Shown here piece by piece: positions 10,196 to 33,644 of a stretch of 38,485 bases of DNA. Positions within the stretch are counted from its first letter, which is position 1. Every line of letters begins with the position of its first letter. Both the position numbers and the translations under genes were made by a program. The notes under the pieces were generated by a model that saw nothing but the letters and a program-made list of their open reading frames with translations, made no database searches and was not told where the DNA came from. The stretch spans positions 1-38,485 of the forward strand of contig CALGKJ010000230.1 of the NCBI GenBank assembly GCA_937930535.1, given 5' to 3'. Source of the DNA: an uncultured Clostridia bacterium. Its GTDB lineage: Bacteria; Bacillota; Clostridia; Lutisporales; Lutisporaceae.

Positions 10196-10218
10196 AGCAA
10201 TTTTCCATACTTAGAAAT

Positions 10219-10328
10219 TATAATTCAGTAAGTTTAATATGAAAATAAAGCTGCGTCTGTCTAGGGTCACTTCCTGAGACTTGCTTTCTTTTCATTGATT
10301 GCTGATGTAAAGTTGGGTAGACAACTTT
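10219..10328 (+). other. Structured leader with possible internal promoter
   Basis: This 188-nt gap is the longest inside the first half of the cluster. TATAAT at 10219-10224 could be a -10 element, but no good -35 lies at the right distance. Downstream, 10241-10250 (GAAAATAAAG) pairs with 10284-10293 with one mismatch, and GTCT/AGAC continues the stem inward; a second hairpin, AAAGTTG/CAACTTT, spans 10309-10328. No T tract follows. It may be a regulatory leader for the ilvD-like operon. Confidence 0.4.
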
Positions 10329-10383
10329 AAATACAGTTTAGGGAGATAAAAATAATTATCTTTTACTAAGGGGGTCAGGGAAT

Positions 10384-12114: not shown

Positions 12115-12183
12115 TTGTTGCAAACAAGGAAAAAAATATATATAGTAAAAATACATAAAAAAGTTATAGGGAGGAAGAACTTA

Positions 12184-12609: not shown

Positions 12610-12619
12610 CGGTACACCC

Positions 12620-13726: not shown

Positions 13727-13730
13727 AGCA

Positions 13731-15595: not shown

Positions 15596-15606
15596 AGGAG
15601 GAGCAA

Positions 15607-16896
15607 ATGAAAGTTCTAGAAAAAATAGCGGAAAAGCTTAAGTCTGAAATTGTGCCGCTTCTGAGCGAGCTAATAAAATTTAAAACAGAAAGTCCTCCTT
15701 CACACACACGGGATATGGCTGAGTTCATTCAAAAATACTTAAAAAATTATGGTATAGAAATGGAATTGCAGGCAGCTGGTTGTACTGAAATGGTTAATGG
15801 TATAGCCCTACTAGAAGGAAAATCAGAAAAACCGATTATGGCAATGCATAGTCATCTTGATGTAGTTACAGCCTTAAATGAAAGTCAATGGAAGTACCCG
15901 CCATATTCAGGACATGAAAAATGTGGCTATATATGGGGGCGAGGTGCTATTGATATGAAGGGATATCTTGCGGTTCAGATGCTTACCCTTGTAGCACTAA
16001 AAGAAGCTGGTGAAAATTTGTACTGCAATCCAGCACTGCTGTTAACGGCAGATGAAGAAAGGGGTGGGATTACAGCTACTAGAATGTTGGTGGAGGAAAA
16101 TGAAGAATTACTAAAAAAAGTAAAGTGCGTTATTTCTGAGGGTGGATACATATACAGCGATGGAAATACCAGAATTGCATTGGTATCTCTTGCAGAGAAG
16201 AAAAGCTATCCGTTGACTATACGGATATTATCAGGAAAAAGTGGTCACGCAGCATTACAGGAAGATGATAACAACAATGTGATATTTGCTATACCAAAGC
16301 TGCTTGAAAAGATAAAAAAGTTTAATGACAGCCAAAATAAACTGGAACTCTTTAGCAACAGTAGTTTATATTCATTAGACAGCTATAAGGATTTGCCATT
16401 TTATAAAAATGGTCTGAAAAATACTATAACTCCCACCAAGCTAAATAGTGGACTTAAAGGTAACCTTATACCCGATGCTTTAGAATTAAGACTTGATTGC
16501 AGGCTTACTCCATACCAAAATGAAAAAGAATTCGTTAAGCTGCTTAGTGATTATTTACAGTTTAAAGGGTTTAATGTCATAGTAGACGATAAGCATCCTG
16601 CCTGTAGTGCACTTCCCAAAAAACCATCAATTAGCCAGGATTTTAAAACGATAGAAAATATTATTTTGAACTCACTGGGTATAAATACAGTACCAATATG
16701 TGCACCTTTTATGACCGATTTACAATACTTTAGAGAAAAGGGCATAACTTCATACGGGTTTATGCCTTTCTGTTTTGATAAAGAGGTTTTTAATTTATAT
16801 CATAACTTTGATGAAAGAATAGGTACAAACATTTTAAAAGAGGGTTTACTTCTAAATATAAAGCTTATTTACGAAGCTTGCCACAGTACATATTAG
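15607..16896 (+). CDS. M20-family metallopeptidase (ArgE/DapE-like)
   Basis: 429 residues, with AAAGGAGG before the ATG. Two-metal site residues are seen: H83-x-D85 in MHSHLDVV, the bridging aspartate in RGAIDMKG, and the catalytic pair in TADEERGG. The dimerisation-domain region KSGHAALQEDD follows, and a late HNFDER supplies the last ligand. Members remove N-acyl groups or hydrolyse small peptides. Within this cluster it might deacylate an N-acetylated intermediate made by the GNAT, in the manner of ArgE, or trim a peptide. No signal peptide is seen. The next gene follows after 16 nt. Confidence 0.87.
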   Translation: MKVLEKIAEKLKSEIVPLLSELIKFKTESPPSHTRDMAEFIQKYLKNYGIEMELQAAGCTEMVNGIALLEGKSEKPIMAMHSHLDVVTALNESQWKYPPYSGHEKCGYIWGRGAIDMKGYLAVQMLTLVALKEAGENLYCNPALLLTADEERGGITATRMLVEENEELLKKVKCVISEGGYIYSDGNTRIALVSLAEKKSYPLTIRILSGKSGHAALQEDDNNNVIFAIPKLLEKIKKFNDSQNKLELFSNSSLYSLDSYKDLPFYKNGLKNTITPTKLNSGLKGNLIPDALELRLDCRLTPYQNEKEFVKLLSDYLQFKGFNVIVDDKHPACSALPKKPSISQDFKTIENIILNSLGINTVPICAPFMTDLQYFREKGITSYGFMPFCFDKEVFNLYHNFDERIGTNILKEGLLLNIKLIYEACHSTY

Positions 16897-16912
16897 TTAA
16901 GGAGAATGAAAA

Positions 16913-18412
16913 ATGAATACAGCCTTCTTAAAACCGATACATAAAATTATTGAGGAAAAGTCTGCAAAGCAGCGGGAGAAAGCAGCCATAAAGGTTGAAA
17001 ATCAAATAATTACATATGACAAGCTTAACAATTATGCTAACTATATTGCAGAAATGCTAATCAAAGCTGGTTGTGGTATTGATTCTATAGTTGGAATAGT
17101 TATGGGGCGCACAAAGGAACTGCCAATAGCAATATATGCCGTGCACAAGGCAGGATGTACTTATGCACCTATGGATTCAGGCTGTAGCAGAGAAACTATT
17201 GAAGCTATAATTGAAGACACTAAGGCTCATATAATTCTCACAACTAAGCATCTTAGGCATCTGATTCCATATTCATACACAGGAATGGTAATAGAACTTG
17301 ATGAGATTTTGGAAAGCAGTATGCATAATGTAAAGGAAATAAGTGCTGATACACCTATGGATACTATAGCATATATAATGCCAACTTCCGGCTCCACAGG
17401 GAGACCTAAAGGGGTAATGGTTAAAAATATTGGATTATCCAATTACTTGTACTGGGCCGCAGAATATTACTGCATGGGTGAAAAAGCTAATTTTCCCATC
17501 TATAGTTCAATATCCTTTGATCTTACTATTACGAGCATTTACCTGCCGCTTATAACTGGAGGCACAATATATCCTATGCATGAAAAAACAGTAATCGAAG
17601 CAGCTAACCATCAAGAAGTGAATTTTTTGAAATTGACTCCTGCTCATTTAAGCATACTTAAAAACTTAGATTGTTCCAACTCGAAAGTAAAAAAAATTAT
17701 CGTAGGTGGAGAAGGGTTGAAAACACAAATAGCGCTAAAAGCCTATGAACGCTTTGGTAGAGATATAATGATTTACAATGAATATGGACCTACAGAAACT
17801 ACAGTAGGTTCAATGATAAAGAAATTCTGCCCTGAAGAAAAATATCCTTCAGTATCTATAGGCAAGGCAATAAATAATACTGCTATATATTTGCTGGACA
17901 ACAATATGAAGCTTGTAAGCCGGGGAAGTATAGGAGAAATATTTATATCAGGAGATGGCGTGGCAAAAGGTTACCTTAATCGCAATGAGGAAACTGAGGA
18001 ATGTTTTCTGCCAAATCCTTTTATAACTGGACAATATATGTATAGGACAGGCGATTTAGGAAGAGTTCTTCAAAATGGTGATTTGGAATATATGGGAAGA
18101 ATACAAACTCCTGAAACAGGATTAGTCATAGATGGAATAGATATTAGAGTAGATTATATTGAGAATACAGCTTTATCCTATTCTGGTATAGAAGAAGCTG
18201 TTATAGTAGCAAAAAGGAATGATGAAAACAAGCCTTATCTTGCACTATATTATTTGTCCCAAACGCAAGTAGTGGAGGACGCACTTAGAATATTTTTAGA
18301 GACTAAGCTGCAAAAAACTATTATACCAAACGTAATAAAACGCTTGGATAGTATACCATTGAATTACAACGGAAAAGTATTTCGCCCTTCACTAAGGGCA
18401 ATTAAGGATTGA
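16913..18412 (+). CDS. Stand-alone adenylation (AMP-binding) enzyme
   Basis: 499 residues, the length of one adenylation domain with no carrier or condensation domain. Core motifs are readable: A3 TSGSTGRPKGVM, A5 YNEYGPTETTVGS, A7 YRTGDLGR and A10 NYNGKVF with its catalytic lysine. It most resembles NRPS A-domains. It would activate an amino or carboxylic acid as the acyl-AMP, but no phosphopantetheine carrier is encoded in the window, so the acyl acceptor is unknown: a remote carrier, an amine directly, or the PP-loop system. AAGGAG precedes the ATG. It closes the second block of the cluster, with 117 nt before the transporter genes. Confidence 0.87.
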   Translation: MNTAFLKPIHKIIEEKSAKQREKAAIKVENQIITYDKLNNYANYIAEMLIKAGCGIDSIVGIVMGRTKELPIAIYAVHKAGCTYAPMDSGCSRETIEAIIEDTKAHIILTTKHLRHLIPYSYTGMVIELDEILESSMHNVKEISADTPMDTIAYIMPTSGSTGRPKGVMVKNIGLSNYLYWAAEYYCMGEKANFPIYSSISFDLTITSIYLPLITGGTIYPMHEKTVIEAANHQEVNFLKLTPAHLSILKNLDCSNSKVKKIIVGGEGLKTQIALKAYERFGRDIMIYNEYGPTETTVGSMIKKFCPEEKYPSVSIGKAINNTAIYLLDNNMKLVSRGSIGEIFISGDGVAKGYLNRNEETEECFLPNPFITGQYMYRTGDLGRVLQNGDLEYMGRIQTPETGLVIDGIDIRVDYIENTALSYSGIEEAVIVAKRNDENKPYLALYYLSQTQVVEDALRIFLETKLQKTIIPNVIKRLDSIPLNYNGKVFRPSLRAIKD

Positions 18413-18529
18413 ATATTATGACTCATATCAATAAAGGCTGTTGAATAACTATTTAATGCATGAGTACGTTTTTATAAATGGCAATTAAAAAACTGTATGT
18501 CTTAAATATTATCAGGGAGAGTGGTTAAA

Positions 18530-19498
18530 ATGCAATATGCAGTAGAAATAGAAAATCTCACAAGACATTATGTTAGCGGAAAAGGCATATTTGATAAGAA
18601 ACGAGAAACGGTAACCGCTGTAAACAACGTTTCCTTCAATGTAAAAAAGGGAGAAGCTGTGGGACTTCTAGGACCGAATGGTGCAGGTAAGACAACACTG
18701 ATAAAAATGCTTACAACCATTCTTATTCCTAGCTCGGGCAAAGCTAATATCTTGGGAATGGATGTAGTTAAAGACGCTGGGAAAATCAGAAGAAGGATTA
18801 ATGTAGTATATGGCGGTGATAAGGGTTTATATACGAGACTGACGGCTAGAGACAATTTAAAATATTTTTGTAACTTATACCATGTACCAGAGAAACTTCA
18901 ACAGAGTAAGATTGAAGAGCTTCTTTCACTTGTGGGTTTAAATCATGCTGCTGATAGAAGGGTAGAAAACTTCTCAAGGGGCATGAGACAGAAACTACAT
19001 ATAGCCAGAGGCTTGATAAATGATCCTGAAATACTATTTCTGGATGAACCTACAATAGGAATGGATCCAGTATCTAGTTTAGCTATAAGGGGTTTAGTAA
19101 AGCGGCTGAATGAAAAAGGAATGACAATATTTTTGACAACTCATTATATGCAGGAAGCGGAAGAAATTTGTGATAGAGTTGCTTTCATAAATAAAGGTAG
19201 CATAATACTGCTTGATAATATTGAAAAAATCAAGATAAAGTACAGGAAAAGTTTTAATGTTGACCTTATAGTACCTTCTGAACATAAGGTTAAGGCGGAG
19301 TCTTTAAAAAATAAGTATAAAAATCTTAAAATTGATGATAGCAACGAGGACTTTATACTGCTTAATATAAATACTATTGATATTAGTGATACTTTAAAGG
19401 ATATTACATCTGTTTTCGACAATATTGAAATTACCGACCTGAATGTAAGAACCAGCTCCCTGGAGGATGCGTATATACAAATTGTACAAAACAGTTAA
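18530..19498 (+). CDS. ABC transporter ATP-binding protein
   Basis: 322 residues from the ATG at 18530, with GGGAGAG upstream; a GTG at 18521 overlaps that site. Walker A GPNGAGKTT, signature NFSRGMRQKLHIARG, Walker B ILFLDEPTIGMD and the H-loop TTHYMQEAEE are all present, plus the C-terminal extension of DrrA-type drug exporters. Two ABC-2 permeases follow, so this is probably the motor of an exporter for the cluster's product, and may give self-resistance. Confidence 0.92.
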   Translation: MQYAVEIENLTRHYVSGKGIFDKKRETVTAVNNVSFNVKKGEAVGLLGPNGAGKTTLIKMLTTILIPSSGKANILGMDVVKDAGKIRRRINVVYGGDKGLYTRLTARDNLKYFCNLYHVPEKLQQSKIEELLSLVGLNHAADRRVENFSRGMRQKLHIARGLINDPEILFLDEPTIGMDPVSSLAIRGLVKRLNEKGMTIFLTTHYMQEAEEICDRVAFINKGSIILLDNIEKIKIKYRKSFNVDLIVPSEHKVKAESLKNKYKNLKIDDSNEDFILLNINTIDISDTLKDITSVFDNIEITDLNVRTSSLEDAYIQIVQNS

Positions 19499-19521
19499 GA
19501 GAATTGCAGGTGAGGTGTGAA

Positions 19522-20310
19522 ATGAAAAAAATAATTCAAGAAATAAAAGCATCTATTATTCTGACAACAAAGGATTGTTTGTCGCATTCAGCCTTGTTGT
19601 TTGAAATATCTCTGGGAGCAATTATATATTCTATAGTCTCAATTTACTTATATAAGGATCAAAGCAGTACAAATTCGGTATTTTATATGCTTTTAGGGGC
19701 AGGTGCTATGGGAGTTTGGGAGAGTACATTACTAGGAGGGGCATGGACTCTAAGGGATGAAAAAGAGCAGGGACTTTTAGAATATTACTTATGTGCTCCT
19801 TCAAATATGCTATCTATAATTTTTGGCAAATGTTTTGTCTATACTATAATCGGGCTTATAGTAATACTAGAGATTTTTTTGATCATATACTTTAGTTTTG
19901 ATTTGTCAGCAATATACGTAAATTATTACAAGCTTATTGCAGCTTTTTTTCTATTATTATTTAGTTTTTCAATTACTGGATTTTTACTAAGCTTTGGATT
20001 TCTTTTGGCAAGGTCTTTTTTAAATATTTCTAATTTTCTTTCTGATAGCATAAAGCTTTTTTGTGGAGTATTATTTCCTATAACTGTGCTTCCATATGGA
20101 TTTAGAGCTTTATCAGTGATACTTCCCCCTACATGGGGGGTGGAAATTATGAGAACTACTTTAATAAATAGAAGTGAATCCTATATATCCTTTGGTGGAG
20201 CAGCACTTATGATTATTTTATTGACGTTCCTTTATCTTTGTATTGCACTAAGCCTTTATAAGGTTATTGAAACAAAGATAAGACAGAAAGGCGAATTATC
20301 AAAATTTTAG
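19522..20310 (+). CDS. ABC-2 type permease (first)
   Basis: 262 residues from the ATG at 19522 with GAGGTG upstream. About six hydrophobic segments are seen, including LFEISLGAIIYSIVSIYLY, FVYTIIGLIVILEIFLIIYF and ALMIILLTFLYLCIALSLY. The cytoplasmic EKEQGLLEYYLCAPS loop after the second segment is the coupling element typical of ABC-2 permeases. It would pair with the second permease as a heterodimer driven by the preceding ATPase, 23 nt upstream. Confidence 0.87.
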   Translation: MKKIIQEIKASIILTTKDCLSHSALLFEISLGAIIYSIVSIYLYKDQSSTNSVFYMLLGAGAMGVWESTLLGGAWTLRDEKEQGLLEYYLCAPSNMLSIIFGKCFVYTIIGLIVILEIFLIIYFSFDLSAIYVNYYKLIAAFFLLLFSFSITGFLLSFGFLLARSFLNISNFLSDSIKLFCGVLFPITVLPYGFRALSVILPPTWGVEIMRTTLINRSESYISFGGAALMIILLTFLYLCIALSLYKVIETKIRQKGELSKF

Positions 20311-20313
20311 TTA

Positions 20314-20367
20314 TATAGAAAGTGCTAAGTACCTGTGTTAGCTAATTACTGACGTATACTTTCTATA
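20314..20367 (+). repeat. Inverted repeat between the two permease genes
   Basis: TATAGAAAGT (20314-20323) is perfectly repeated in reverse complement at 20358-20367, with 34 nt between. No T tract follows, so it is a weak terminator at best. It could attenuate or stabilise the transcript between the two permease genes. Confidence 0.4.
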
Positions 20368-20474
20368 AAATATAAATAGTAAGCTTATATTTTTGAATGT
20401 AATCTATTTAGTATCATTTATATAGCTATTGCTTATTGCATAAAAAGTAAAATAATTTCATGAGAGGGTAAGTT

Positions 20475-21257
20475 ATGAAAGAATTTAAAAGATTTATTGA
20501 AAATGTTTTCTTAAGCTATAAATCAATATATGGATGGATGAGCCTTCGTACTTACATATTTATGGTAGTACTTATTCCTTTTTCACAGACAGCGCTGTTT
20601 TCATATCTGAATTATTTTATAAAAGGAGAAGCTGGTATGAAATACGCTGCCTTAGGAAATTCCTTATATACTATTTGTATATTTGTAGTCTTCTCTATGG
20701 GTGCTTCAATAACAAATGAAAGACGTCTAGGAACTCTGCAAACTATATTATTTGCACCCCAAAACAAATTTATTTTTTTTATTACAAAATCAGTTCTCCA
20801 CATAGTAGAAGGTATAGTAACGTGCTGTTTTAGTCTTTTGATCGGAACTATTTTATTCAAGCTTGATTATTCTGATGTAAATTGGTTTTACATGGCAGTG
20901 GTTATTTTTACAACAGCTTCCATGATGATAGGTGTAGGATTATTTGCAGCTGTTGCAGGTTTGTTATTTAGAAAGGCTACTCCTATCTTAAATGCAATAG
21001 TACTTTTATTATTCCTACTGTGCGGCATCAACTTTCCAACCAGTAAGCTGCCTGGGGTGTTGCAGCTAGTTTCAAATGCTATTCCTCTAACTTATGGTAT
21101 AAGGCTTTTGAGAGCAGTGTATAGCAAGGGTGAAATATTTACTATGGATTTCTTAAATTTGTGTTTGACAGGGATAATATTCTTTATAGTAAGCTATAGT
21201 GTTTTTAAAATATCCGAAGCCTATTCCCGCAAGAGAGGTACTTTAGATTACTACTAA
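20475..21257 (+). CDS. ABC-2 type permease (second)
   Basis: 260 residues, with GAGAGGG before the ATG. Six hydrophobic segments are seen, and the loop NERRLGTLQTILFAPQNK is the same coupling element as in the first permease. The late LPGVLQLVSNAIPLTYGIRLLRA is typical of the ABC-2 family. It is separated from the first permease by 164 nt holding an inverted repeat, so the two may be expressed unequally. It should form the other half of the exporter. Confidence 0.87.
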   Translation: MKEFKRFIENVFLSYKSIYGWMSLRTYIFMVVLIPFSQTALFSYLNYFIKGEAGMKYAALGNSLYTICIFVVFSMGASITNERRLGTLQTILFAPQNKFIFFITKSVLHIVEGIVTCCFSLLIGTILFKLDYSDVNWFYMAVVIFTTASMMIGVGLFAAVAGLLFRKATPILNAIVLLLFLLCGINFPTSKLPGVLQLVSNAIPLTYGIRLLRAVYSKGEIFTMDFLNLCLTGIIFFIVSYSVFKISEAYSRKRGTLDYY

Positions 21258-21314
21258 AAATTAAATATATAATAGCTTAAGTACAAATCATTAGAAGAAC
21301 GAGGAGGCTGTTTG

Positions 21315-22544
21315 ATGGGTAATAATACTATATTACTATTAAAGGCGGGATTTCATAGAGAGTTTGCCTTAAAAACCTTATTTAGAAAGGGATTTGAGGT
21401 TATTATTATTGATAGTCCTTTTTCGAGAGAGCTTGCGTATGCTGATTATCCCTATATTACATCGGATATTTCGAATCCACAGAAGTTGTTTGAATTAGCT
21501 GTAAGCATATACAAAACAAGAAACTATAGCGGTGTATTTACTACAACAGATAGCTGTATTATAACACTAGGAATGCTGAGTGATTATTTTGAGTTGAATT
21601 ATTTTAGTGAAAAAACAGCTCGAATGTTAGTAAATAAGCTTGAAGTAAGAAAATACTTAAAAGCAATAGGAGCTGATAATACTGCATTTTTCGAAATAAA
21701 TTCGTTAAGTGATTTAGAAAAACGCAGCGTTGCTTTATCATATCCCTTTATTCTTAAACCTACGGATAGGAGTGCGGGTAAGGGTGTAGTGGTTATCAGG
21801 AGTGAAGAGGAATTAAAGGAAGCATATGACTATGTGCGTGGTTTTTCCAAAAGCAGCCCTCTTATAGCCGAGGAATTTATTGATGGAGAAGAGTATTGCA
21901 TTGAGGCAATTGTTTGCAACGGAGTGTGCTATACACTAGATATTAGTAAAAAGAAAGTAACTAACAGCAGATATTGTATTGAGCTGACAGATATAACACC
22001 AGCACCATTATCCAATGAGTGGAAAGAGGCAATAGAAGCATATATTAAGGATACAGTATCTGAGCTTGAAATCAGCAATGGGATTTTGCATATAGAATTC
22101 AAGCTCAATGGAAGCGGGCAGCCGAGAATAATAGAGATAAATCCAAGACCAGCAGGGGGAAACCTTATAGAAGCCATTTATGATTTAAAAGGGCTTAATG
22201 TATACGATTATGCATTTGATTTGGCAATGAAGCGGGAAATCCATGTAAACAAGCTAAAAGGACAAATAAGTCAGCCCATAGAAAAATTCGCTCTATTTAA
22301 TTCCTTTATAAGTCCGACGGGTAGCGGAATTATTAGCAATATAAGAGGAATAGACAAAGCAGCTGGGAAATTTGAAAACGACCATGAGAAGCTTATACTT
22401 TTCTATGGAAAGGGCGATTATTTGCCTGCACCTGAGACTAATGGCGAGGCCAGAGGTTCTATTTATCTTTTAGACTCTGATTTTGATAATATTGTTAAAC
22501 GTTCAGAGGAAATAGAAAATTCTTTAGAGTATCAATTTGAATGA
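21315..22544 (+). CDS. ATP-grasp ligase
   Basis: 409 residues from the ATG at 21315 with GAGGAGG upstream. The N-terminal pre-ATP-grasp domain is followed by the ATP-binding lysines in FILKPTDRSAGKGVVV, the acidic EEFIDGEEYCIEAIV, and the metal-binding segment IEFKLNGSGQPRIIEINPRPAGG. This is the carboxylate-amine ligase type that includes the dipeptide ligase BacD and carbamoyl-phosphate-synthase-like enzymes. It would make an amide or peptide bond through an acyl phosphate, and so is the best candidate for the joining step of the pathway. Its stop is 14 nt before the next start. Confidence 0.87.
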   Translation: MGNNTILLLKAGFHREFALKTLFRKGFEVIIIDSPFSRELAYADYPYITSDISNPQKLFELAVSIYKTRNYSGVFTTTDSCIITLGMLSDYFELNYFSEKTARMLVNKLEVRKYLKAIGADNTAFFEINSLSDLEKRSVALSYPFILKPTDRSAGKGVVVIRSEEELKEAYDYVRGFSKSSPLIAEEFIDGEEYCIEAIVCNGVCYTLDISKKKVTNSRYCIELTDITPAPLSNEWKEAIEAYIKDTVSELEISNGILHIEFKLNGSGQPRIIEINPRPAGGNLIEAIYDLKGLNVYDYAFDLAMKREIHVNKLKGQISQPIEKFALFNSFISPTGSGIISNIRGIDKAAGKFENDHEKLILFYGKGDYLPAPETNGEARGSIYLLDSDFDNIVKRSEEIENSLEYQFE

Positions 22545-22558
22545 AAGGTTCTGAGAAT

Positions 22559-24823
22559 ATGATACAAGATTTAAAATTTGTAGCTATTGAGAACAATATG
22601 AATTTAAAATGTATGGTGAAAGAGCAGGGTTTTGATGGAGCAAAGATATACCCAATATATACAAGCAATATACCACAAATAAGACGAAAATTCCCAAATG
22701 TTCATTTAGAAACATATTTGGAGTGTAGTGAAGAAAAAGTTGAATTATCTGATATACAAGAAAAAATGGATAAACATAATATGTTAATTTGTAATTTAAA
22801 AGATTATGTATTTCTCTGTTTAAATGAGGATGAGAATATATCAGATATCTTATTTGTTACTTATTTATATGCAAGGCTTACTAATAAAAAGGTAAGAGCT
22901 TATCATAATAAAAAGCAGTTACAGGACATACTTTCAACAGAAAATATTAAAAGCATGATGCTTATTACTTCTATGGAAACCTTTGACTTTAAGGAATATT
23001 TTGATCTTTCCGAAAAACATGAAAAGGTGGCAAAAGGCTGCATTCTATATACTGATAAGTATTTCTTGAACTTTTATCTGGCAAAGCTTATACTGCATAG
23101 CACTGCCAGCGTCCATAGAACACATATAATGATAAACAGAATAAGCTCGCCAAAAGCAAGTATGGAAGAAAGAATAAATAGTGAGGAGCAATTCTGCTAT
23201 TTGCCAAAACCATATTGCACCTATGATAATTTGAAAAAAAGCATATTTTCAGAAAAGGCAGTTTTAGAATTTAATTACTTGTCTCACAGCAGAGAATGCG
23301 CTTTATTTTTTAATGATTTTTACTTGTGCGGTTTGCAAAGCTGTAAAGAATATATTAATACCAACACTGCACTGGACAAATATAAGCATTACCCATGCTG
23401 TTATTATGATGAAAAGGATTGCAATATAACTAATAGGTCAAAAATAAATGCAGAAATGCTTAATGCAGATATTATGTTCCTGAATGGCTGTAATCTTGGA
23501 GATTTGAACAGAAGCTTTGTTCCGCTAAATTATACAGTCGTAGCAAATCTCATAAATAATAATGCGGTATCAGTAATAACAAGCCCCACAATAAAGGTTG
23601 GAAACATAGCGGAAAACGTGCTTGCCTATAACCTCTTAAAATATGGTTATTCAGAGGGAGAAAAGCTTTACTATATTAACAAGTTTCTAGATTATAGTCA
23701 TATTGAAGATAAATGTTATTTTCTTATAGGAGATCCATGCCTTATAGGTTCAGGACATCAATATAGAAAACTTGGAGATATAAAAGTAAAAAAAGAGATA
23801 GTAGACAACAACTCTTATTATTTAGATATAGAAGCTGCTAAGGGTGAAACCCTAATAGAGATTAGTTTGGGAGAAGGCTGGGATAAACCATATATTAGCG
23901 GAATTGATTTTTATAATAGCAATGAGAGTATATCTATAGAGGATTTATACTATTGCATCGTAGAAGATATATACTCCGATAATAAAAGTCTTATGCTTTT
24001 TTCTAGCAAAAGTTTTGATTTTGAACGAGTAAGGATCACACTAACCTTTAGGGACTATTTTCAGGATAAAATTGAAAAAATCACTGAGTATATGAGAGAT
24101 ATTCCGTTCTATAAGGATAATTTTGTAATGAGTAATAATCTTAAAGGGAATATGGAAAACCTTCAAAATAGTATTAAAAATATATATCCCCTGTATAAGA
24201 CCTGTAGATTTGATTTACAGGCAATAGATAAGCTGAGCAAGCTGCTGATAAAAATAGAAAAAAAATTAAGTATGGTACTAGAGGATATATTCAAATCCAT
24301 AGCAGATTATACATTATTCAAACAGGATAATTACTACGAAAGAATCTGTGAAAAAAGAATTCCATTGCAAGCAAACAGGATATCTATTCAGTGCATGAAT
24401 TGTAAATGTAAGGAACATATATACCCATACAAGATACTTACAATTGAAAGGGAATATTTTAGATATAGCAGTAAATGTATGCATTGTGGATTAATCAGGG
24501 ATATACCTGATGATAAGCTTGTTTTTGAAAGCTATGGTAGTATGAAATTCGGTAGTGAGGGAACAGAATGTGAAATCACAAAAATAATAAACAAGCATGA
24601 GTGTAACGTACCTATTAATATTGCTTGTATATGTATTGATACCTCGGATATAGTTGTAGAACCAGCAATCGTAAAAACACTGTTAAAGCCGGGCGAGGAA
24701 TATACATTAAAAGTGAAGCTGACACCAAAGACAGGTCTGAAAAAACACTTTTATTTATTCTCCTTTTATGTTATGGCAGGCAGCAAATTTTATTACTACT
24801 CAAAAATGTTTGGTTATAAATAG
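22559..24823 (+). CDS. Large protein of unknown function, possible caspase-like fold
   Basis: 754 residues from the ATG at 22559, which has AAAGG upstream; an ATG at 22541, overlapping the previous stop as ATGA, would add six residues. I do not recognise it with confidence. Residues about 90-400 resemble a clan CD (CHAT/gingipain-like) peptidase: a histidine at 243 (YLSHSRECALFFND) and a cysteine at 311 (IMFLNGCNLGDL), followed by LIGDPCLIG. A coiled region follows, then a zinc ribbon (Cys612, Cys615, Cys640, Cys643) and a C-terminal beta-rich domain (about 665-754) that may be Ig-like. No signal peptide or membrane segment is seen. It may cleave or recognise a pathway product or protein. Confidence 0.6.
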   Translation: MIQDLKFVAIENNMNLKCMVKEQGFDGAKIYPIYTSNIPQIRRKFPNVHLETYLECSEEKVELSDIQEKMDKHNMLICNLKDYVFLCLNEDENISDILFVTYLYARLTNKKVRAYHNKKQLQDILSTENIKSMMLITSMETFDFKEYFDLSEKHEKVAKGCILYTDKYFLNFYLAKLILHSTASVHRTHIMINRISSPKASMEERINSEEQFCYLPKPYCTYDNLKKSIFSEKAVLEFNYLSHSRECALFFNDFYLCGLQSCKEYINTNTALDKYKHYPCCYYDEKDCNITNRSKINAEMLNADIMFLNGCNLGDLNRSFVPLNYTVVANLINNNAVSVITSPTIKVGNIAENVLAYNLLKYGYSEGEKLYYINKFLDYSHIEDKCYFLIGDPCLIGSGHQYRKLGDIKVKKEIVDNNSYYLDIEAAKGETLIEISLGEGWDKPYISGIDFYNSNESISIEDLYYCIVEDIYSDNKSLMLFSSKSFDFERVRITLTFRDYFQDKIEKITEYMRDIPFYKDNFVMSNNLKGNMENLQNSIKNIYPLYKTCRFDLQAIDKLSKLLIKIEKKLSMVLEDIFKSIADYTLFKQDNYYERICEKRIPLQANRISIQCMNCKCKEHIYPYKILTIEREYFRYSSKCMHCGLIRDIPDDKLVFESYGSMKFGSEGTECEITKIINKHECNVPINIACICIDTSDIVVEPAIVKTLLKPGEEYTLKVKLTPKTGLKKHFYLFSFYVMAGSKFYYYSKMFGYK

Positions 24824-24865
24824 TGGATTCCCATAAATACATATATGATAGTGAGGGCAAATATT

Positions 24866-25624
24866 ATGATAGTACTTTTTGATAACGATTTTAAAATAAA
24901 TAAATTTGAAGCTCTTAAAATAAAAGCAAAAGGATTTCTTGAGGAACAATTAAAAAAACAACATGGGGTTGCTACTAACTCTCTGGATAATTACCGAGGG
25001 TTTAAATCAAATACCGCTTCTTTAAATGAATTGCCGTATTATATATTAGGTTCTCACCAATATAAATATCTGCATTCAATAAATGTATCAAAGAATTGTG
25101 TAAGGCTTGCGGAAATAGAGGGCAATACTTCGGTGCAAGTAATGGAGCTTGTAGGATTATTGCATGATGTCTCCTATTTTGGATGTGAATACAAAAAACA
25201 TGGGACTAAATCTGGAAATATTACAGCAGAATTTTTGAGTAAGGAATCTGACTTGAGAGAGGATGATATTGCGAAAATATCCAGAATAGTAAGCTCACAC
25301 TACCCAGAGGATGATACTTTAGAATGCTATTGCTGCAAGGAGAATATTTCTCTTGAAGAAGTATTATTAGTAGAAGCTGATTTTCTTGAAAAGGTGAATT
25401 TAAAAAGCGGAATACAGGTTCTTTTGGAATGTGGAAATAGAAAATTTGATCTACAGACTTCATTAAAGCAGTTTGAAGCAAGAATAATAGAGAAGTCTAA
25501 TGAGTATATAGCATGTTCCAACAGAAAAGGATATTGCAGCTGCACAGATTCATTTTTCCAATTAGTAGAAGAACAGCTGGAATGTACTAAAAAGTTTATT
25601 GATGATTTAAGAATGTACCTATAA
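24866..25624 (+). CDS. HD-domain phosphohydrolase-like protein
   Basis: 252 residues from the ATG at 24866, which has GAGGG upstream; an ATG at 24845 is also in frame. The HD metal site is visible in order: the histidine in YKYLHSINVSKN, LLHDVSY, the histidine in KKHGTKSGN, SSHYPED, and the late aspartate in VEADFLEKV. A cysteine-rich segment (LECYCCKENI, GYCSCTD) is odd for the family. HD proteins hydrolyse phosphate esters, often of nucleotides, though some are oxygenases. It is the last gene of the collinear cluster; no terminator is visible before the Nudix gene that follows after 53 nt. Confidence 0.78.
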   Translation: MIVLFDNDFKINKFEALKIKAKGFLEEQLKKQHGVATNSLDNYRGFKSNTASLNELPYYILGSHQYKYLHSINVSKNCVRLAEIEGNTSVQVMELVGLLHDVSYFGCEYKKHGTKSGNITAEFLSKESDLREDDIAKISRIVSSHYPEDDTLECYCCKENISLEEVLLVEADFLEKVNLKSGIQVLLECGNRKFDLQTSLKQFEARIIEKSNEYIACSNRKGYCSCTDSFFQLVEEQLECTKKFIDDLRMYL

Positions 25625-25677: not shown

Positions 25678-26427
25678 ATGAAAGTAGAATTCCAAAACAT
25701 AGGACAAGTAAAAAACGAAAACCTAAAATACGCAGTAATCAGTGCTGTTCATGAGAAAAAGTGGGTATTTGTAAAACATAAGGAAAGAGATACTTGGGAG
25801 ATACCGGGAGGGCGCAGGGAAACTGATGAGGACATTAACGATACTGCCAAAAGGGAGCTTTTTGAGGAAACGAGAGCGAAAAATTTTCAAATAAAACCTA
25901 TATGTGATTATTGTGTTATAATTGACGATAAAAAATCCTATGGCAGACTATTTTATGCTGATATAAAGGATTTTGGTGATTTACCTGATTTAGAAATAGG
26001 AGAAGTAAAACTATTTGAAAAGCTGCCGGAAAAATTAACGTATCCTAGTATTCAACCGCTTCTGTATAGAAAAGCACTAACAGAAAAAATGATTACAGAA
26101 TACTTAGGTAGAGAAGTTAAGGCAACTATGGATAGACCGTTAGGCTCTAAGCACCCTCAGCATAATTTTATATACCCCATCAACTATGGATACATTCCAG
26201 ATACAGTTTCTGGGGATGGAGAAGCTATAGATGCCTATATTATCGGAGAATTTGAACCATTAAAGTTTTACACAGGATATGTTGTTGCAATAATAAATAG
26301 AAGAAATGACGATGAAGATAAACTGGTGGTTTGTAAAAGTTTGGATTTATATAATAGAGATCAGATAAGAGCTTTAACTGAGTTTCAAGAGCGTTTTTTT
26401 GAATCTGATATTATTAGTGCATACTAA
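25678..26427 (+). CDS. Nudix hydrolase fused to inorganic-pyrophosphatase-like domain
   Basis: 249 residues, with CGGAGG before the ATG. Residues 1-138 are a close paralog of the Nudix domain encoded at 3144. Its box reads GGRRETDEDINDTAKRELFEETRA: the catalytic glutamates remain, but the final glycine is arginine. Residues about 139-249 resemble a family I inorganic pyrophosphatase: the block around HNFIYPINYGYIPDT, then GDGEAIDAYIIGEF in place of DGDPLDV. Both domains act on diphosphates, so the enzyme may couple nucleotide cleavage to pyrophosphate removal (inference). A decayed GNAT relic directly downstream shows that the ancestor was a Nudix-GNAT fusion. Confidence 0.82.
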   Translation: MKVEFQNIGQVKNENLKYAVISAVHEKKWVFVKHKERDTWEIPGGRRETDEDINDTAKRELFEETRAKNFQIKPICDYCVIIDDKKSYGRLFYADIKDFGDLPDLEIGEVKLFEKLPEKLTYPSIQPLLYRKALTEKMITEYLGREVKATMDRPLGSKHPQHNFIYPINYGYIPDTVSGDGEAIDAYIIGEFEPLKFYTGYVVAIINRRNDDEDKLVVCKSLDLYNRDQIRALTEFQERFFESDIISAY

Positions 26428-26657: not shown

Positions 26658-27626
26658 ATGAGCATATACGAAAACAACTCAACTAAATCAAAAATCAACG
26701 AAACCATAATAAGCGACTTAAGAAGGAAAATCCGCAGCGAAAAAATATTAAGCTGTCTTATATTGAAAAATAATCAACTTATATTTGAACACTACAAGAA
26801 TAACAAAACCTCTAATGCTGTTCAGACCATTAATTCATGTACTAAAAGCATAATATCCGCACTGATTGGCATCTTAATTGACAAAGGCTTGATTAAGAGT
26901 GTGCATACTTCGATAACAGAGTTTTTTGGTGATATAGTTAATAATCTGCTTGATGAGAGATTGAAAAATATTACAATCTACCATTTGCTAACTATGACAC
27001 CGGGGTTTGACTGGCCGGAATTTGGGGCTTGGAATTGCTTTGCCCCAATGGTATACAGCAGTGATATAATCAAGTTTATACTAAAAAGACCTATTGTTAC
27101 AGAGCCTGGACATGGTATGAACTATAATTCCGGCTGTTCACATTTGTTATCGGCTATTATAAGCAAGATTACAGGTGTTACTGCTGATGAATACGCCAGA
27201 GAGCACCTTTTTAAACATATTGAAATATCAAAATCAGTATGGCATGAAAGGCAAGGGATTAGTCTCGGGGCAGATGGGCTTAGAATCACATCAATGGATA
27301 TGCTAAGGTTTGGCAGCTTATATCTGAATAAGGGTTTTTGGAAAGGCAAGCAGATTATTTCAAGTGAATGGATTGAAGAATCTACAGCCCCCCGATACAA
27401 AACATATAAACAGATTGGCAGTTATGCGTATCACTGGTGGGTATCATCATTTGAAAATGCTGATATAAATGTTGAATATTACTTCGCTTTGGGCTACGGA
27501 GGTCAATACATTATTGTTGTACCAAAATTTGAAATGGTTGTGGTTTTTACTAGCAGGATTTACAATGACTCCTTAAGACCTATGTACTACTTTGAGGAGT
27601 TTATATTAAAGGCAATTGAAGCTTGA
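26658..27626 (+). CDS. Serine hydrolase, beta-lactamase/DD-peptidase fold
   Basis: 322 residues, preceded by CGGAG. The nucleophile motif S-x-x-K is Ser60-Lys63 in NSCTKSIIS, the second motif lies in MNYNSGCSHLL, and a late GYGGQYI fills the third. The ITIYHLLTMTPGFDW stretch is typical of the class C-like/EstB group. No signal peptide is visible, so a cytoplasmic esterase, amidase or peptidase is more likely than a secreted beta-lactamase. It stands alone, followed by a terminator at 27729. Confidence 0.87.
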   Translation: MSIYENNSTKSKINETIISDLRRKIRSEKILSCLILKNNQLIFEHYKNNKTSNAVQTINSCTKSIISALIGILIDKGLIKSVHTSITEFFGDIVNNLLDERLKNITIYHLLTMTPGFDWPEFGAWNCFAPMVYSSDIIKFILKRPIVTEPGHGMNYNSGCSHLLSAIISKITGVTADEYAREHLFKHIEISKSVWHERQGISLGADGLRITSMDMLRFGSLYLNKGFWKGKQIISSEWIEESTAPRYKTYKQIGSYAYHWWVSSFENADINVEYYFALGYGGQYIIVVPKFEMVVVFTSRIYNDSLRPMYYFEEFILKAIEA

Positions 27627-27728: not shown

Positions 27729-27769
27729 CCTTTAGACAATGCACTTGTATAGTCTAAAGGATTTTTTTT
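27729..27769 (+). terminator. Intrinsic terminator after the serine hydrolase
   Basis: The stem CCTTTAGAC (27729-27737) pairs perfectly with GTCTAAAGG (27752-27760) and is followed by A and eight T. It separates the serine hydrolase from the regulator cassette. Confidence 0.85.
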
Positions 27770-27859
27770 ACATTCCGGCACCCAACAAATCAACCAAACT
27801 AACATTGTAAGCTATACTAAAAAAATCCACTTTACCTACTTCCATTGTATTGGGAATAA

Positions 27860-27881
27860 TGGTATAATTTAATCGCGATTT
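27860..27881 (+). promoter_or_regulatory. Extended -10 promoter and palindrome before the RRNPP-like regulator
   Basis: TGGTATAAT (27860-27868) is an extended -10 element with no good -35. Just downstream is AATCGCGATT, a 10-bp palindrome; its TCGCGATTT is repeated at 30195-30203 before the acyl-CoA dehydrogenase gene. This could be an operator. Confidence 0.5.
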
Positions 27882-27901: not shown

Positions 27902-29158
27902 ATGAAAAAGCTTACAAAGGATGATATAAAGCTGTTGGGCGAAGGACCGCAGATTAAGAAATACATACTGCTTCGCTACAAATCTGTTGCAGATTTTTAT
28001 GATAATAATCAGCTATCCATTACCCTTGATTCCCTGAGAACATACCTTGCAAGGAAAAAAATCTATTCTGAGACACTAAAGTTAATAATAGTAAACTGCT
28101 TTAATGTAGGCTACTCAGATATTGTGCTTACTGATCAGGAGCAGGCAAGGCGATTCGCATGGGATGTTAATGCAAATATAAAGCTTTATAACGAAAGAGA
28201 AGACTTGGATACATTTAGAGCTATTGAGCAGCTTCTTGAAAAATTTGATCTGCCGGTGGAAAAGGCAATGATGCTGAGAGCAAAGGCTAATAACTGCTTT
28301 TATAGGAATGTCATCAGCCAGTCCATAGAATGGTATGAGATGGCTATAGAAAGAATGGGCAGACTAGATTTAGACAGGCTGGTACAGCTATACTGTGAGC
28401 TTGCAGATGTTTTGGGACGCGAACAGCTTGATAATAAGGCATTAATGTACTTTGATATGGCAGAGGAAATAATAAAGGACAACAAAATACGAGAGGATAT
28501 GCTTTTCAGATACTATTACTGGAGAGGCAAATTTGAGGTTGACAGAAACAATACCGCTGCTGCAAGAGAGCTGTTTTTAAAAGCAAGTACCAATGCATCA
28601 AATCTGGAGGAAAGAACTGTTGCCTTGCAGAACATCGGTTCTACATATTTTAAGGAATCCAATTATAAGGAAGCTATAGAAATATATGATAAAGTAATAG
28701 GTATGTATGACCCTAATGACTATGTACGTATTAGTACTGTACTAAATAATAAGGCTATGGTAATGATAGACATGGAGCTTTATGCAGAGTCAATACAGCT
28801 TAGTACAAAAGCACTATTCTATGTAGATAGCACTAATGATTATAAAAGATACATACTATACAAACAAACCTATACAAAGGCAAGATATTTAATGGGCTAC
28901 AAGGAGGAGTGCCTTGACTATTTTGATGACTTAAAGCTTGCCAGCACAAAGCTGGTGGATAAAAGCTGTCTCATAGAGGATATCAATGAGCTAGCAGCCC
29001 TAATAAATGAAAAATATTTATTGCAACGCTTTGCTGATGCTATCCTGCAAATGGAGGATAATCAGACTCAGGGTTATAAAAAGGATTACATAGTAAACCT
29101 TCAAAGCTGCGTTGCACTAATTTATAAAAAAATAAGAAGGTTAGAAGGAGTGGGATAA
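27902..29158 (+). CDS. RRNPP-like TPR regulator
   Basis: 418 residues. The N-terminal 90 residues have helix-turn-helix character (KSVADFYDNNQLSITLDSLRTYL, then KLIIVNCFNVGYSDIV). The rest is a string of TPR-like helices, for example SIEWYEMAIERMG, YKEAIEIYDKVIGMYDP and YAESIQLSTKALFYV. Length and layout fit the RRNPP group (Rap, NprR, PlcR and clostridial Qsr types), whose TPR domain binds a re-imported signal peptide. Two tandem small secreted peptides start at its stop codon, as expected for such a pair. Whether it binds DNA or a protein is not certain. GGGGTG lies before the ATG. Confidence 0.8.
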   Translation: MKKLTKDDIKLLGEGPQIKKYILLRYKSVADFYDNNQLSITLDSLRTYLARKKIYSETLKLIIVNCFNVGYSDIVLTDQEQARRFAWDVNANIKLYNEREDLDTFRAIEQLLEKFDLPVEKAMMLRAKANNCFYRNVISQSIEWYEMAIERMGRLDLDRLVQLYCELADVLGREQLDNKALMYFDMAEEIIKDNKIREDMLFRYYYWRGKFEVDRNNTAAARELFLKASTNASNLEERTVALQNIGSTYFKESNYKEAIEIYDKVIGMYDPNDYVRISTVLNNKAMVMIDMELYAESIQLSTKALFYVDSTNDYKRYILYKQTYTKARYLMGYKEECLDYFDDLKLASTKLVDKSCLIEDINELAALINEKYLLQRFADAILQMEDNQTQGYKKDYIVNLQSCVALIYKKIRRLEGVG

Positions 29159-29296
29159 ATGAAAGCAATAAAATCCATAACATGCGTCATACTAATATCA
29201 ATACTAACACTATCCCTAACAGTAACAGCATTTGCTGGCCTTGATACAGACCCTTGGGGCAGAAGCTGTTCAGTCATAGTAGAATTTGAAAAGTAA
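29159..29296 (+). CDS. Secreted signal pro-peptide 1
   Basis: 45 residues, starting right at the regulator's stop, with AGAAGGAG upstream. Residues 1-26 form a signal peptide: MKAIKS, a hydrophobic core and an AFA cleavage site before G27. The remaining 19 residues (starting GLDTDPWGRSC) would be exported. It shares DPWGRSC and almost the whole signal peptide with the next gene. The arrangement fits a Phr-like quorum-sensing precursor read by the upstream regulator. Confidence 0.75.
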   Translation: MKAIKSITCVILISILTLSLTVTAFAGLDTDPWGRSCSVIVEFEK

Positions 29297-29309
29297 AGGA
29301 GCAGGATAA

Positions 29310-29447
29310 ATGAAAGCAATAAAATCCATAATATGCGTCGTACTAATAACAATACTAATACTATCCCTGACAGTAACAGCATTTGCTGGTCATGACAGTG
29401 ACCCTTGGGGCAGAAGCTGTATTAAAGCAGTAGAGGCTGTAAAATAG
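29310..29447 (+). CDS. Secreted signal pro-peptide 2
   Basis: 45 residues, with AAAGGAGC upstream, 13 nt after peptide 1. The signal peptide again ends AFA before G27, and the exported part begins GHDSDPWGRSC. It is clearly a tandem duplicate of peptide 1: the core DPWGRSC is identical, while the residues after it differ (SVIVEFEK in peptide 1, IKAVEAVK in peptide 2). Conservation of the core and divergence of the tails suggest that the core is the signal. Confidence 0.75.
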   Translation: MKAIKSIICVVLITILILSLTVTAFAGHDSDPWGRSCIKAVEAVK

Positions 29448-29532: not shown

Positions 29533-29574
29533 AACCTTTAGATTATGTAAATATATTAATCTAAAGGTTTTTTT
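29533..29574 (+). terminator. Intrinsic terminator of the regulator-peptide cassette
   Basis: A 13-bp perfect stem (29533-29545 with 29557-29569) is followed by a run of T. It ends the regulator plus peptide transcript about 85 nt after the second peptide. Confidence 0.85.
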
Positions 29575-29699
29575 ATATGCAAAAGCTTAAAGCATAAGAC
29601 CGATTTTTTATAGAAAAAACAGCAAGTGTAAATGTATATAATGTGCAATTTGGTAATGGGAAAATATTGTTACGAAATGAGTAAAATGCCAAAAAAATG

Positions 29700-30232: not shown

Positions 30233-31384
30233 ATGAATTATGATAAAATACAAGCTGCCATTGTTGAAGAAGCTGAAGCTTTTGTAAATGATGAAATACG
30301 TCCGTATGTAAATGAATTTGAGGAAAAAGGCGGAATACCTAGAGAGTTGATTAGCAAAATGGCAGCTAAAGGATATTTAGCTGCACCTTTCCCAAAGCAG
30401 TATGGGGGTTTGGAACTTGATCCTGTATATTATGGCTTGTTCACAGAGGCATTCGGAAAAGGCTGTGTTGCAACAAGAAGCCTTCTTACAGTTCACAGTT
30501 CTCTTGTTGGAGAGACTATACTCCGTCTGGGAACAGCAGATCAAAAAAATAAATGGCTGCCTCTTATGGCACGTGGAGAAGCGATTGGTGCCTTTGGATT
30601 ATCAGAGCCAGATATCGGATCCGATGCAAAGGGTATCAAGACTACATGGCATGAAGAGGATGACTGCTATGTTATAAATGGAGCCAAAAAATGGATTACC
30701 TTTGGACATTTAGCAGATGTATTTATTATTATTGCAGCAAATAATGGCAGGAGTACTGCATTTTTAGTGGAAAGATCCTTCCAAGGACTTGAGACGAAGC
30801 GTATAGAGGGCTTAATGGTTGCTCGTGCAACATATCTTGCTGAAATCTATCTTAATAATGTTAGAGTTCCCAAGGAGAATGTAATAGGAAAGCTTAACTT
30901 CGGCTTTGAGTATGTTGTTTCCACAGCTCTTGATTTCGGACGCTATAGTATAGCTTGGGCAGGTGTGGGATTAGCACAGGAAGCACTGGAGGCAATGGTA
31001 ACGTACTCCCGTAACCGTTCGCAGTTTGATCAGAAACTAAGAAACTTCCAGCTTATCCGAGGCATGATTGGCGATGCTGTCACCAAGATCCATGCAGCCA
31101 GAGCCCTCTGTCTGAGAGCGGGTCAATTGAGGAGGGATAAAGATCCTGAGTCAATCATTGAAACAACTACATCAAAATATTTTACCTCAAAGGTTGCAGT
31201 AGAGGTGGCAAATGATGCATTACAAGTACACGGTGCCAATGGCTTTACAAATCAGTATCCTGTAGAAAGACTCTACAGAGAAGCAAAGGTATTAGAGGTA
31301 ATAGAAGGTTCATCTCAAATGCAGCAGGAGATAATTTCAAACTATGGTTTACAGCACTATTATATAAGGAATAAAAAGAAATAG
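30233..31384 (+). CDS. Acyl-CoA dehydrogenase family flavoprotein
   Basis: 383 residues, full family length, with GGAGG before the ATG. Visible features are the FAD/substrate block GAFGLSEPDIGSDA, KKWITFG, the region FGRYSIAWAGVG, the RNRSQFDQKLRNFQLIR helix and the late catalytic-base region VIEGSSQM. The QVHGANGFTNQYPVERLYREAK stretch (split here by reading) is typical. No electron-transfer flavoprotein genes adjoin it. The next gene encodes an FkbH-like protein; in methoxymalonyl-type pathways an FkbI-like dehydrogenase of this family oxidises a glyceryl-ACP loaded by FkbH. A specialised role of that kind is more likely than beta-oxidation. Confidence 0.88.
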   Translation: MNYDKIQAAIVEEAEAFVNDEIRPYVNEFEEKGGIPRELISKMAAKGYLAAPFPKQYGGLELDPVYYGLFTEAFGKGCVATRSLLTVHSSLVGETILRLGTADQKNKWLPLMARGEAIGAFGLSEPDIGSDAKGIKTTWHEEDDCYVINGAKKWITFGHLADVFIIIAANNGRSTAFLVERSFQGLETKRIEGLMVARATYLAEIYLNNVRVPKENVIGKLNFGFEYVVSTALDFGRYSIAWAGVGLAQEALEAMVTYSRNRSQFDQKLRNFQLIRGMIGDAVTKIHAARALCLRAGQLRRDKDPESIIETTTSKYFTSKVAVEVANDALQVHGANGFTNQYPVERLYREAKVLEVIEGSSQMQQEIISNYGLQHYYIRNKKK

Positions 31385-31448
31385 GACTATTAATACATAG
31401 AAAGACGAAAGCTTCCAAAAACATAATATTTGGGGAAGGGGAATACTT

Positions 31449-32489
31449 ATGGATGAAAAAAAAGATATAAAATGTATTGTTTGGGATCTGGATAACACCT
31501 TATGGGATGGAGTTTTAATTGAATCTGGTGATGTTCAATTAAAGCCAGGAATTATAGAGATTATAGAAACCTTGGACAAACGGGGCATACTCCAATCAGT
31601 TGCTAGTAAAAACGACTATGATTTGGCAATGTCAAAGCTTAAGGAATTCGGTCTGGATGATTATTTTCTTTATCCTGAAATCCACTGGAATGCAAAATCC
31701 TATTCCGTGGAGCGAATTCAGAAAAATATAAATATAGGTATGGATGCTATCCTTTTTGTAGATGATCAGGAGTTTGAGCTTGAGGAGGTAAAAAATACAC
31801 ATCCAACAGTAAATTGCATTAATTCAGAACTATATCAGACGCTTTTAGATAATCCTCGTCTGAACCCTAAGTTTATTACAGTTGATTCAGCCCGAAGACG
31901 TAAAATGTATCAGGCTGACTACATAAGAAAGCAGCTAGAGGAAGAATATCAAGGACCAGCAGAATCCTTCCTTGCTTCGCTTAATATGAAATTTACAATC
32001 AGCGATGCTATGGAAGAAGATTTAAAGCGTGCAGAGGAGCTTACAGTAAGAACAAATCAGTTGAATGCCACAGGCAAAACCTTCAGCTATGATGAGTTAA
32101 ATGAGCTGCGGCTATCTGAAAATCATAAGCTGCTTATTTGTGAGCTGGAGGACAAATATGGAACCTATGGCAAGATAGGTCTTGCCTTAGTAAACATGAT
32201 GGAAGATCATTGGAGGCTTGAAATGATGCTTATGTCATGCCGCGTAGTGTCAAGAGGTGTAGGCACAGTTCTATTGAGCTATATTATGAAGGAAGCAAAA
32301 AAGAACAATAAAACATTATTAGCAAATTTTCGTGACACTGGGCGCAACAGGATGATGAATGTAAGCTTCCGATTTTCGGGCTTTCAAGAAAAGTCTTCTG
32401 ATGGAAATGGAAACTACATATTCGAGCATACCTTGGATAATATAGCCGAGTTTCCAGAATACATAGAGGTTTGCATAAACACACTATAG
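31449..32489 (+). CDS. FkbH-like HAD/GNAT-type protein
   Basis: 346 residues, with GGGGAAGGGG before the ATG. The N-terminal HAD domain has the FkbH motif VWDLDNTLWDG (Asp13, Asp15) and FVDDQEFELEEV. The C-terminal half is the GNAT-like domain that always follows in this family (RTNQLNATGKTF, then SCRVVSRGVGTVLL). FkbH proteins dephosphorylate 1,3-bisphosphoglycerate and load the glyceryl group on a carrier protein; some act on other acyl groups. No acyl carrier protein is seen in the window, so the acceptor must be elsewhere or different. It sits 64 nt after the acyl-CoA dehydrogenase, probably in one operon. Confidence 0.87.
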   Translation: MDEKKDIKCIVWDLDNTLWDGVLIESGDVQLKPGIIEIIETLDKRGILQSVASKNDYDLAMSKLKEFGLDDYFLYPEIHWNAKSYSVERIQKNINIGMDAILFVDDQEFELEEVKNTHPTVNCINSELYQTLLDNPRLNPKFITVDSARRRKMYQADYIRKQLEEEYQGPAESFLASLNMKFTISDAMEEDLKRAEELTVRTNQLNATGKTFSYDELNELRLSENHKLLICELEDKYGTYGKIGLALVNMMEDHWRLEMMLMSCRVVSRGVGTVLLSYIMKEAKKNNKTLLANFRDTGRNRMMNVSFRFSGFQEKSSDGNGNYIFEHTLDNIAEFPEYIEVCINTL

Positions 32490-33452: not shown

Positions 33453-33503
33453 AAAAGACATGTTATTCTTCGTATCTTAACCGAAGGATAACATGTCTTT
33501 TTT
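33453..33503 (+). terminator. Intrinsic terminator after the C-N hydrolase
   Basis: A 20-bp stem with one G-T wobble (33453-33472 with 33482-33501) and a 9-nt loop runs into T. The flanking A and T tracts mean it could work in both directions. Confidence 0.88.
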
Positions 33504-33644
33504 ATAAAGAGAAACAACTACAAAATTAAATATATCCAGTTGCTTCTCACAAATAGATTAGCAACTCTTAACGAAAAGTAATTTGAGTTTTAGAGTTGGT
33601 TATCTATAAGAGATTTATAAAAAAATATAAAAGAGGGAACTGTA

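Follow-up and report, generated by a model that had tools for sequence, protein, structure and literature searches.

A cassette of one regulator gene and two small peptide genes, which lies in the window analysed here (the whole stretch of DNA, 38,485 nucleotides), very likely represents an RRNPP(A)-type peptide signalling system, and it is one of around 30 such cassettes that constitute a lineage-specific family in a Clostridia genome. In order, the cassette encodes a TPR regulator of 418 amino acids and two peptides of 45 codons each. The features of the unit and its borders are:

26658-27626: gene before the cassette, encoding a beta-lactamase-fold protein
27729-27768, plus strand: terminator-like hairpin with T-run that closes the preceding gene (MFE -15.8 kcal/mol, z -5.28)
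27840-27868, plus strand: probable promoter of the unit, TTCCAT, 17 bases, TATAAT (27863-27868), read by eye with the paralogs as a guide
27902-29158, plus strand: regulator (ATG at 27902, stop TAA at 29156-29158), with an N-terminal helical domain (HTH-like, residues 14-74) and around nine TPR helix pairs; putative peptide receptor
29145-29150, plus strand: ribosome-binding site of peptide gene 1, AAGGAG, read from the sequence
29159-29296, plus strand: propeptide 1, 45 aa, signal peptide ending AFA, predicted exported tail GLDTDPWGRSCSVIVEFEK
29296-29301, plus strand: ribosome-binding site of peptide gene 2, AAGGAG, read from the sequence
29310-29447, plus strand: propeptide 2, 45 aa, signal peptide ending AFA, predicted exported tail GHDSDPWGRSCIKAVEAVK
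29535-29578, plus strand: terminator-like hairpin with T-run that closes the cassette unit (MFE -11.5 kcal/mol, z -5.08)

Both flanking hairpins fold better than all of 200 shuffled sequences, and since the cassette is bounded by these terminator-like structures it looks like an autonomous transcription unit. The preliminary description was accurate with respect to the two 45-codon genes, their own ribosome-binding sites, the near-identical signal peptides (a hydrophobic helix led by Lys and closed by AFA) and the 19-residue tails that share DPWGRSC. Its statement that the peptide genes start directly at the regulator stop applies to the first, the ATG of which is the base right after the TAA; the second starts after a gap of 13 bases behind the stop of the first.

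The remainder of the window contains several features of separate interest. A dense run of biosynthetic-looking genes lies on either side of the cassette (5809-25624 and 30233-32489) and includes radical SAM, PAPS-reductase-like, aminotransferase, adenylation enzyme, ATP-grasp and ABC transporter genes, followed by those for an acyl-CoA dehydrogenase and an FkbH-like protein. Two genes (3018-4004 and 25678-26427) have very similar NUDIX-type N-terminal halves and different C-terminal halves, one acetyltransferase-like (by eye) and one pyrophosphatase-like (Pfam), which is a case of domain shuffling within one window. Finally, 33497-33613 is a copy of a dispersed, imperfect repeat of around 110 bases (AGAGAAACAACTTCAAAATTAAATTT...GTTGCTTATCTATA) that also occurs near several regulator paralogs and is possibly a miniature mobile element.

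The host Clostridia genome (4.69 Mb, 252 contigs, 97% complete) was searched with the window regulator, which yielded 34 matches, 33 of them regulator-sized (from 69% down to around 23% identity) and one a remnant of 34 residues. As some of the 33 are contig-edge fragments, and as the copy on contig C40 has in-frame stops, the number of cassettes is given as around 30; a special status of the single window cassette is not supported. Loci for which sequence was available for the 3' end of the regulator and for no fewer than 170 bases beyond it were considered readable (n = 27). In 23 of these, the regulator is directly followed by a small ORF that encodes a strong hydrophobic helix and an A-X-A site, and an adjacent short propeptide with a Sec-type signal is a feature of RRNPP(A) systems. 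Co-occurrence of such peptides with homologous regulators, on which the earlier proposal of an RRNPP-like receptor/propeptide pair had been made to depend, was thus found throughout the host genome as well as in relatives, and the proposal is supported. No peptide gene was visible after the regulators of the other four readable loci (L022, L024, L025 and L031), an absence that may reflect a detection limit. Peptide starts mostly overlap the regulator end, often by 17 bases, or fall within 5 bases of it. Two peptide genes are found in just six of the 23 cassettes (L001, which is the window cassette, L003, L007, L011, L017 and L033), with loss of the core from the second copy in L011 and a degraded third copy in L007, while L021 has a single propeptide with two cores. 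In a tree of 32 regulators the window copy, L003 and L033 form a well-supported clade, and the tandem-peptide cassettes do not form one group. The tandem arrangement, which had been put forward as a possible mark of a new family, is not supported as such, and it has a published precedent in aloP10 alpha/beta of Paenibacillus, where one Alo system has two peptides (PMC7425212). Two further observations concern individual loci. At L034 (C40:1099-2348) the regulator is broken by in-frame stops and the peptide gene (core DPYGKN) is intact, which may mean that the signal has outlived its receptor, or that the assembly is in error. A c-di-AMP riboswitch (RF00379, 82.7 bits; L104, 1302-1471) is located around 2 kb upstream of paralog L007.

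When anchored on [DEN]P, the peptide tails yield the consensus A-G-D-x-S-D-P-x-G-[KR]-[NS]-[CS]-I. The anchor is present in 28 of 29 peptides and lies five residues after the Ala of the A-X-A site in 27 of those 28. DP itself occurs at the fixed place in 26 of the 29, as compared to a mean of 3.25 and a maximum of 10 for shuffled tails (5000 shuffles). Within the 28 anchored peptides, Pro is found in all, Asp in 26 and Gly at +3 in 21, and ten have one Cys at core position +6. Conservation concerns D, P and G, and a terminal Trp was encountered in one peptide only (L010). With a [DEN]P-x-G core that keeps a constant distance to the Ala of the signal peptide, the peptides look like a new type, as had been suggested earlier.

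Within the tandem pair of the window, the core is conserved down to each of its 21 bases, and differences are found at five of the eight residues that follow it. Of the seven core residues, 7, 6, 7, 5 and 4 are kept within the pairs of L001, L033, L003, L017 and L007, respectively, and between cassettes the core varies at the x positions. The peptide ORFs of four intact tandem pairs out of five show a dN/dS of 0.10-0.40; in the window pair, where sites are few, it amounts to 0.75 over the entire peptide and to 0.40 over the tail. Because the core is kept within pairs and varies between cassettes, we infer that it carries the message, the identity of which is set by the variable positions. Moreover, the cores differ sharply from one cassette to another and are nearly identical within pairs, which suggests a separate channel for each cassette, in which a tandem copy would mainly raise the dose. 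Divergence of the receptors correlates with that of the peptide tails (Mantel r 0.39, 0 of 5000 permutations), and divergence of the signal part with that of the regulator (r 0.83). The correlation between receptor and tail would follow from joint inheritance or co-evolution, and joint inheritance alone could produce it.

On the side of the regulator, the window copy contains a Pfam TPR_12 domain (39.3 bits, cut-off 30.1), and TPR families were recognized by profile in all 24 paralogs. An AF2 model made from the 24 paralogs (pLDDT 93.6, pTM 0.87) predicts helices at residues 14-25, 29-36, 42-49, 57-67 and 71-74, followed by around nine TPR pairs. Profile, model and structural matches all agree with the concave superhelix of 5-9 tandem TPR motifs that is characteristic of RRNPP(A) receptors. 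The top match in VIA-align is Rap in complex with the competence and sporulation factor (4gyo; Z 24.3, 314 residues, 4.3 Å), and Rap proteins with pheromone occupy all of the first five places (Z 23.9-24.3; four of them phi3T Rap), followed by NprR (Z 22.5) and AimR (6jg9; Z 19.1). Many unrelated TPR proteins that bind peptides or proteins are interspersed among these matches (Z around 20-23). The predicted fold thus supports, without proving, a role as peptide receptor. Asparagines on the inner TPR helices of RRNPP receptors hold the peptide backbone, and the paralogs show little or no variation at N244, N282 and N283. With the exception of Rap, RRNPP(A) receptors carry an HTH domain for DNA binding at the N-terminus. 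The first five predicted helices (14-25 to 71-74) are arranged as in an XRE-type HTH. Since the N-terminal domain matched no HTH profile, nor a PDB sequence, the putative DNA-binding domain is based on these predicted helices. No RRNPP-specific family was among the Pfam, NCBIfam and PHROGs matches of the regulator, and the matches of two paralogs to PHROG 5208 were weak and concern a family of unknown function. When the regulator TAA was read through into peptide 1 and the product was folded in cis with AF2, the tail was disordered (pLDDT around 25) and unplaced, a result that says nothing for or against binding.

Upstream of many paralogs a promoter of the form TTGTAA-N(17)-TATAAT could be discerned, with a conserved spacer end CATAAAATGC. 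The motif TTGTAA..CATAAAATGCTATAAT was recovered at 12 sites in the genome (at most 3 mismatches), 11 of which precede regulator paralogs; at the twelfth, on C49, the contig breaks off where a regulator-type stretch resembling a ribosome-binding site begins. The reversed control pattern was found at none in the whole genome. The window clade (L001, L003 and L033) has its own spacer version, unlike most other paralogs. In the window itself an exact match to the cassette's own motif is located at 27851-27868, and a generic consensus scan proposed other sites. One further weak match to the window promoter motif is found in the window at 14471 (3 mismatches), and as many matches occurred in 2 of 100 shuffles. 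No target gene outside the cassettes was found to carry the cassette promoter: every site with 0-1 mismatch is that of a regulator or lies at a contig end where a regulator probably begins, and the six non-regulator sites among those with 2 mismatches are a number compatible with chance. Given that the spacer is kept beyond the two hexamers and is private to the regulator genes, its sequence suggests an operator for autoregulation.

The distribution of the family is narrow. At E < 1e-20 the regulator family is present in 5 of the 22 genomes of the host family, which in this set make up the whole order. There was no match outside the host family at a cut-off of 1e-60 among 391 genomes across the class, and a second profile gave none at 1e-40 among 397 other genomes across the phylum. 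A profile of the paralogs had no match in a contig collection, and a broader profile recovered ten loci from the same collection. The named relatives are Clostridia MAGs and Anaerosolibacter carboniphilus DSM 103526; several of the intact copies have short secreted-type peptides at their 3' side, with varying cores (TDNPD, HDNP, TDPRG and NDPIG). We conclude that the cassettes form a peptide/receptor family of the RRNPP type that belongs to a single, narrow lineage of Clostridia. One of the records (L060, JAJGRE010000002.1) is named 'Calditrichales bacterium MX18-03' and matches G014, a genome placed in the Clostridia family of the host; the public name of this record is probably wrong.

As to the way in which such a system would operate, the propeptides may be exported by Sec and cut after AFA, upon which the tail, or a processed piece with the D-P-W-G-R-S-C core, would accumulate outside the cell. 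An oligopeptide permease would then take the peptide back in, and the host genome encodes four oligopeptide-type binding proteins (SBP_bac_5). Inside, the peptide would bind the concave TPR surface of the regulator and change its control of transcription, presumably via DNA contact and including its own gene.

It is very improbable that the peptides are instead secreted effectors, bacteriocin-like or surface-acting, with the TPR protein as regulator or immunity partner and not as receptor. The short tails, their frequent single Cys and the tandem copies that are common for such peptides would fit, but the flanks listed for the cassettes have no recurring processing, export or modification gene, no bacteriocin family was matched, the peptides are as long as RRNPP propeptides and the regulator model fits peptide receptors best. 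Equally improbable is an origin of the cassettes in mobile or viral elements, as arbitrium-like switches between lysis and lysogeny. The order of regulator, peptide and third module resembles aimR-aimP-aimX, a DPG motif has been reported for AimR-type and subfamily-08 peptides (PMC12700828), and the cassettes are numerous and dispersed; yet no relative was found in 50,697 phage records, the plasmid set or viral contigs, the flanks are ordinary chromosomal genes and the two closest copies are homologous over little more than the unit itself. That the active product would be the signal peptide, a hydrophobic helix of around 20 residues that causes membrane stress like a type I toxin, with an incidental tail and a regulator that limits expression, is very improbable as well, as the strong conservation of Pro and Asp in the tail is not expected of a spent remnant and the A-X-A cleavage site is conserved as well, despite the weak, chance-level matches of the small hydrophobic ORFs to TisB and PsbN and the close tracking of regulator divergence by the signal part.

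Comparison of the cassette neighborhoods exposed a structured element of around 100 nt with three helices, for which no match was found in Rfam. A covariance model recovered 15 copies in the host genome (E < 1e-3), two of which (on C117 and C146) were outside the set used to build the model. Compensatory changes were observed at 15 of 24 base pairs, as compared to 6.7 in shuffles, and 84% of the cells in the alignment pair versus at most 51% when it is slid, although this alignment was fitted to the model and is thus biased its way. The element is an undescribed structured RNA. Of the 15 copies, nine follow a regulator on its strand at a distance of 0.48-1.03 kb, where 0.06 would be expected, with the reservation that paralogous cassettes are not independent. 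In most cases a small acidic ORF bearing the motif YADIELP comes after the RNA, and all four genome members of a family of proteins of 200-230 aa adjoin such RNA/acidic-ORF modules. The C-terminal Spo0E-like domain of this family scores above the Pfam cut-off in the C123 member and just below it in that of C215. The locations are:

RNA element, copies L136-L150: contigs C123 (twice), C134, C39, C65, C72, C169, C40, C33, C69, C210, C117, C120, C136 and C146
200-230 aa family: L132 (C123:26762-27364), L156 (C215), L157 (C117) and L158 (C40)

Because one AloR system of Paenibacillus controls a spo0E-like gene (PMC7425212) and other RRNPP systems adjoin spo0E-like genes (PMC10075063), sporulation timing would be the most reasonable output of the module-bearing cassettes. 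The RNA element was not found in the window, the cassette of which is without the module and likely regulates itself. A more far-reaching view, which we put forward tentatively and consider rather doubtful as a whole, is that of a lineage-private network of at least 23 parallel DPxG channels with their own receptors, many of which feed into the structured RNA, the YADIELP protein and the Spo0E-like gene, and by which sporulation timing is controlled via RNA.

With its around 30 cassettes, the host genome points to an unusually extensive repertoire of private signals between cells. Provided that the pairs function as receptor and signal, a single genome offers a panel of more than 20 cognate sets on a common scaffold and with a shared peptide core, and the long-standing question of how RRNPP receptors distinguish near-identical peptides would become directly testable, with the downstream RNA/Spo0E module as a concrete, testable output.

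Among known systems, AloR/AloP shares the many receptor paralogs per genome, each followed by a short Sec-type peptide, the occasional tandem peptides and a link to a spo0E-like gene. In AloP, too, a short Sec-exported peptide follows each HTH-TPR receptor, sometimes overlapping the receptor gene (PMC7425212). However, AloR/AloP belongs to the Paenibacillaceae, thus Bacilli, whereas the present family is clostridial. Furthermore, the mature AloP peptides are located at the C-terminal end (e.g. SHGRGG), while the conserved DPxG core of the present peptides is positioned 4-5 residues behind the signal cleavage site and is, unlike in AloP, followed by 10-15 or more variable residues; the two were set apart on the basis of description. 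The QsrA-H/Qsp and QssR systems of solventogenic Clostridium share the clostridial HTH-TPR regulator followed by a propeptide of 39-50 aa, and the link to sporulation (PMC7376267, PMC7206700). The active heptapeptide of QspB, AEPTWGW, is internal (PMC7376267, PMC7206700), a position that the present core seems to share. Nevertheless, Qsp peptides have a conserved L, P and C-terminal W, where those studied here have D-P-x-G and as a rule no terminal W (Qsr was compared by description). Rap/Phr and NprR/NprX are the best structural matches and likewise have the propeptide encoded just downstream, but identity in the structural alignments is only 11-14% and no RRNPP-specific Pfam domain was matched. 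AimR/AimP is similar in fold, in the DPG motif and in the third module, present downstream in around one third of our cassettes, and differs in its location in temperate phages, as opposed to the chromosomal flanks without phage or viral relatives seen here, and in its degenerate TPR repeats, which in the present regulators are recognized by profile.

The copy number in the host is not a record, as P. polymyxa has 16 AloR receptors and P. terrae 40, 27 of which with a peptide (PMC7425212). In the RRNPP literature covered, nothing comparable in number was found described for Clostridia, the solventogenic species having five to eight Qsr/Qsp-type systems per genome (PMC7376267, PMC7206700). The kind of system is therefore known; the present branch and its peptide motif appear undescribed and, if our reading is true, extend to Clostridia the mass paralogy known from Paenibacillus.
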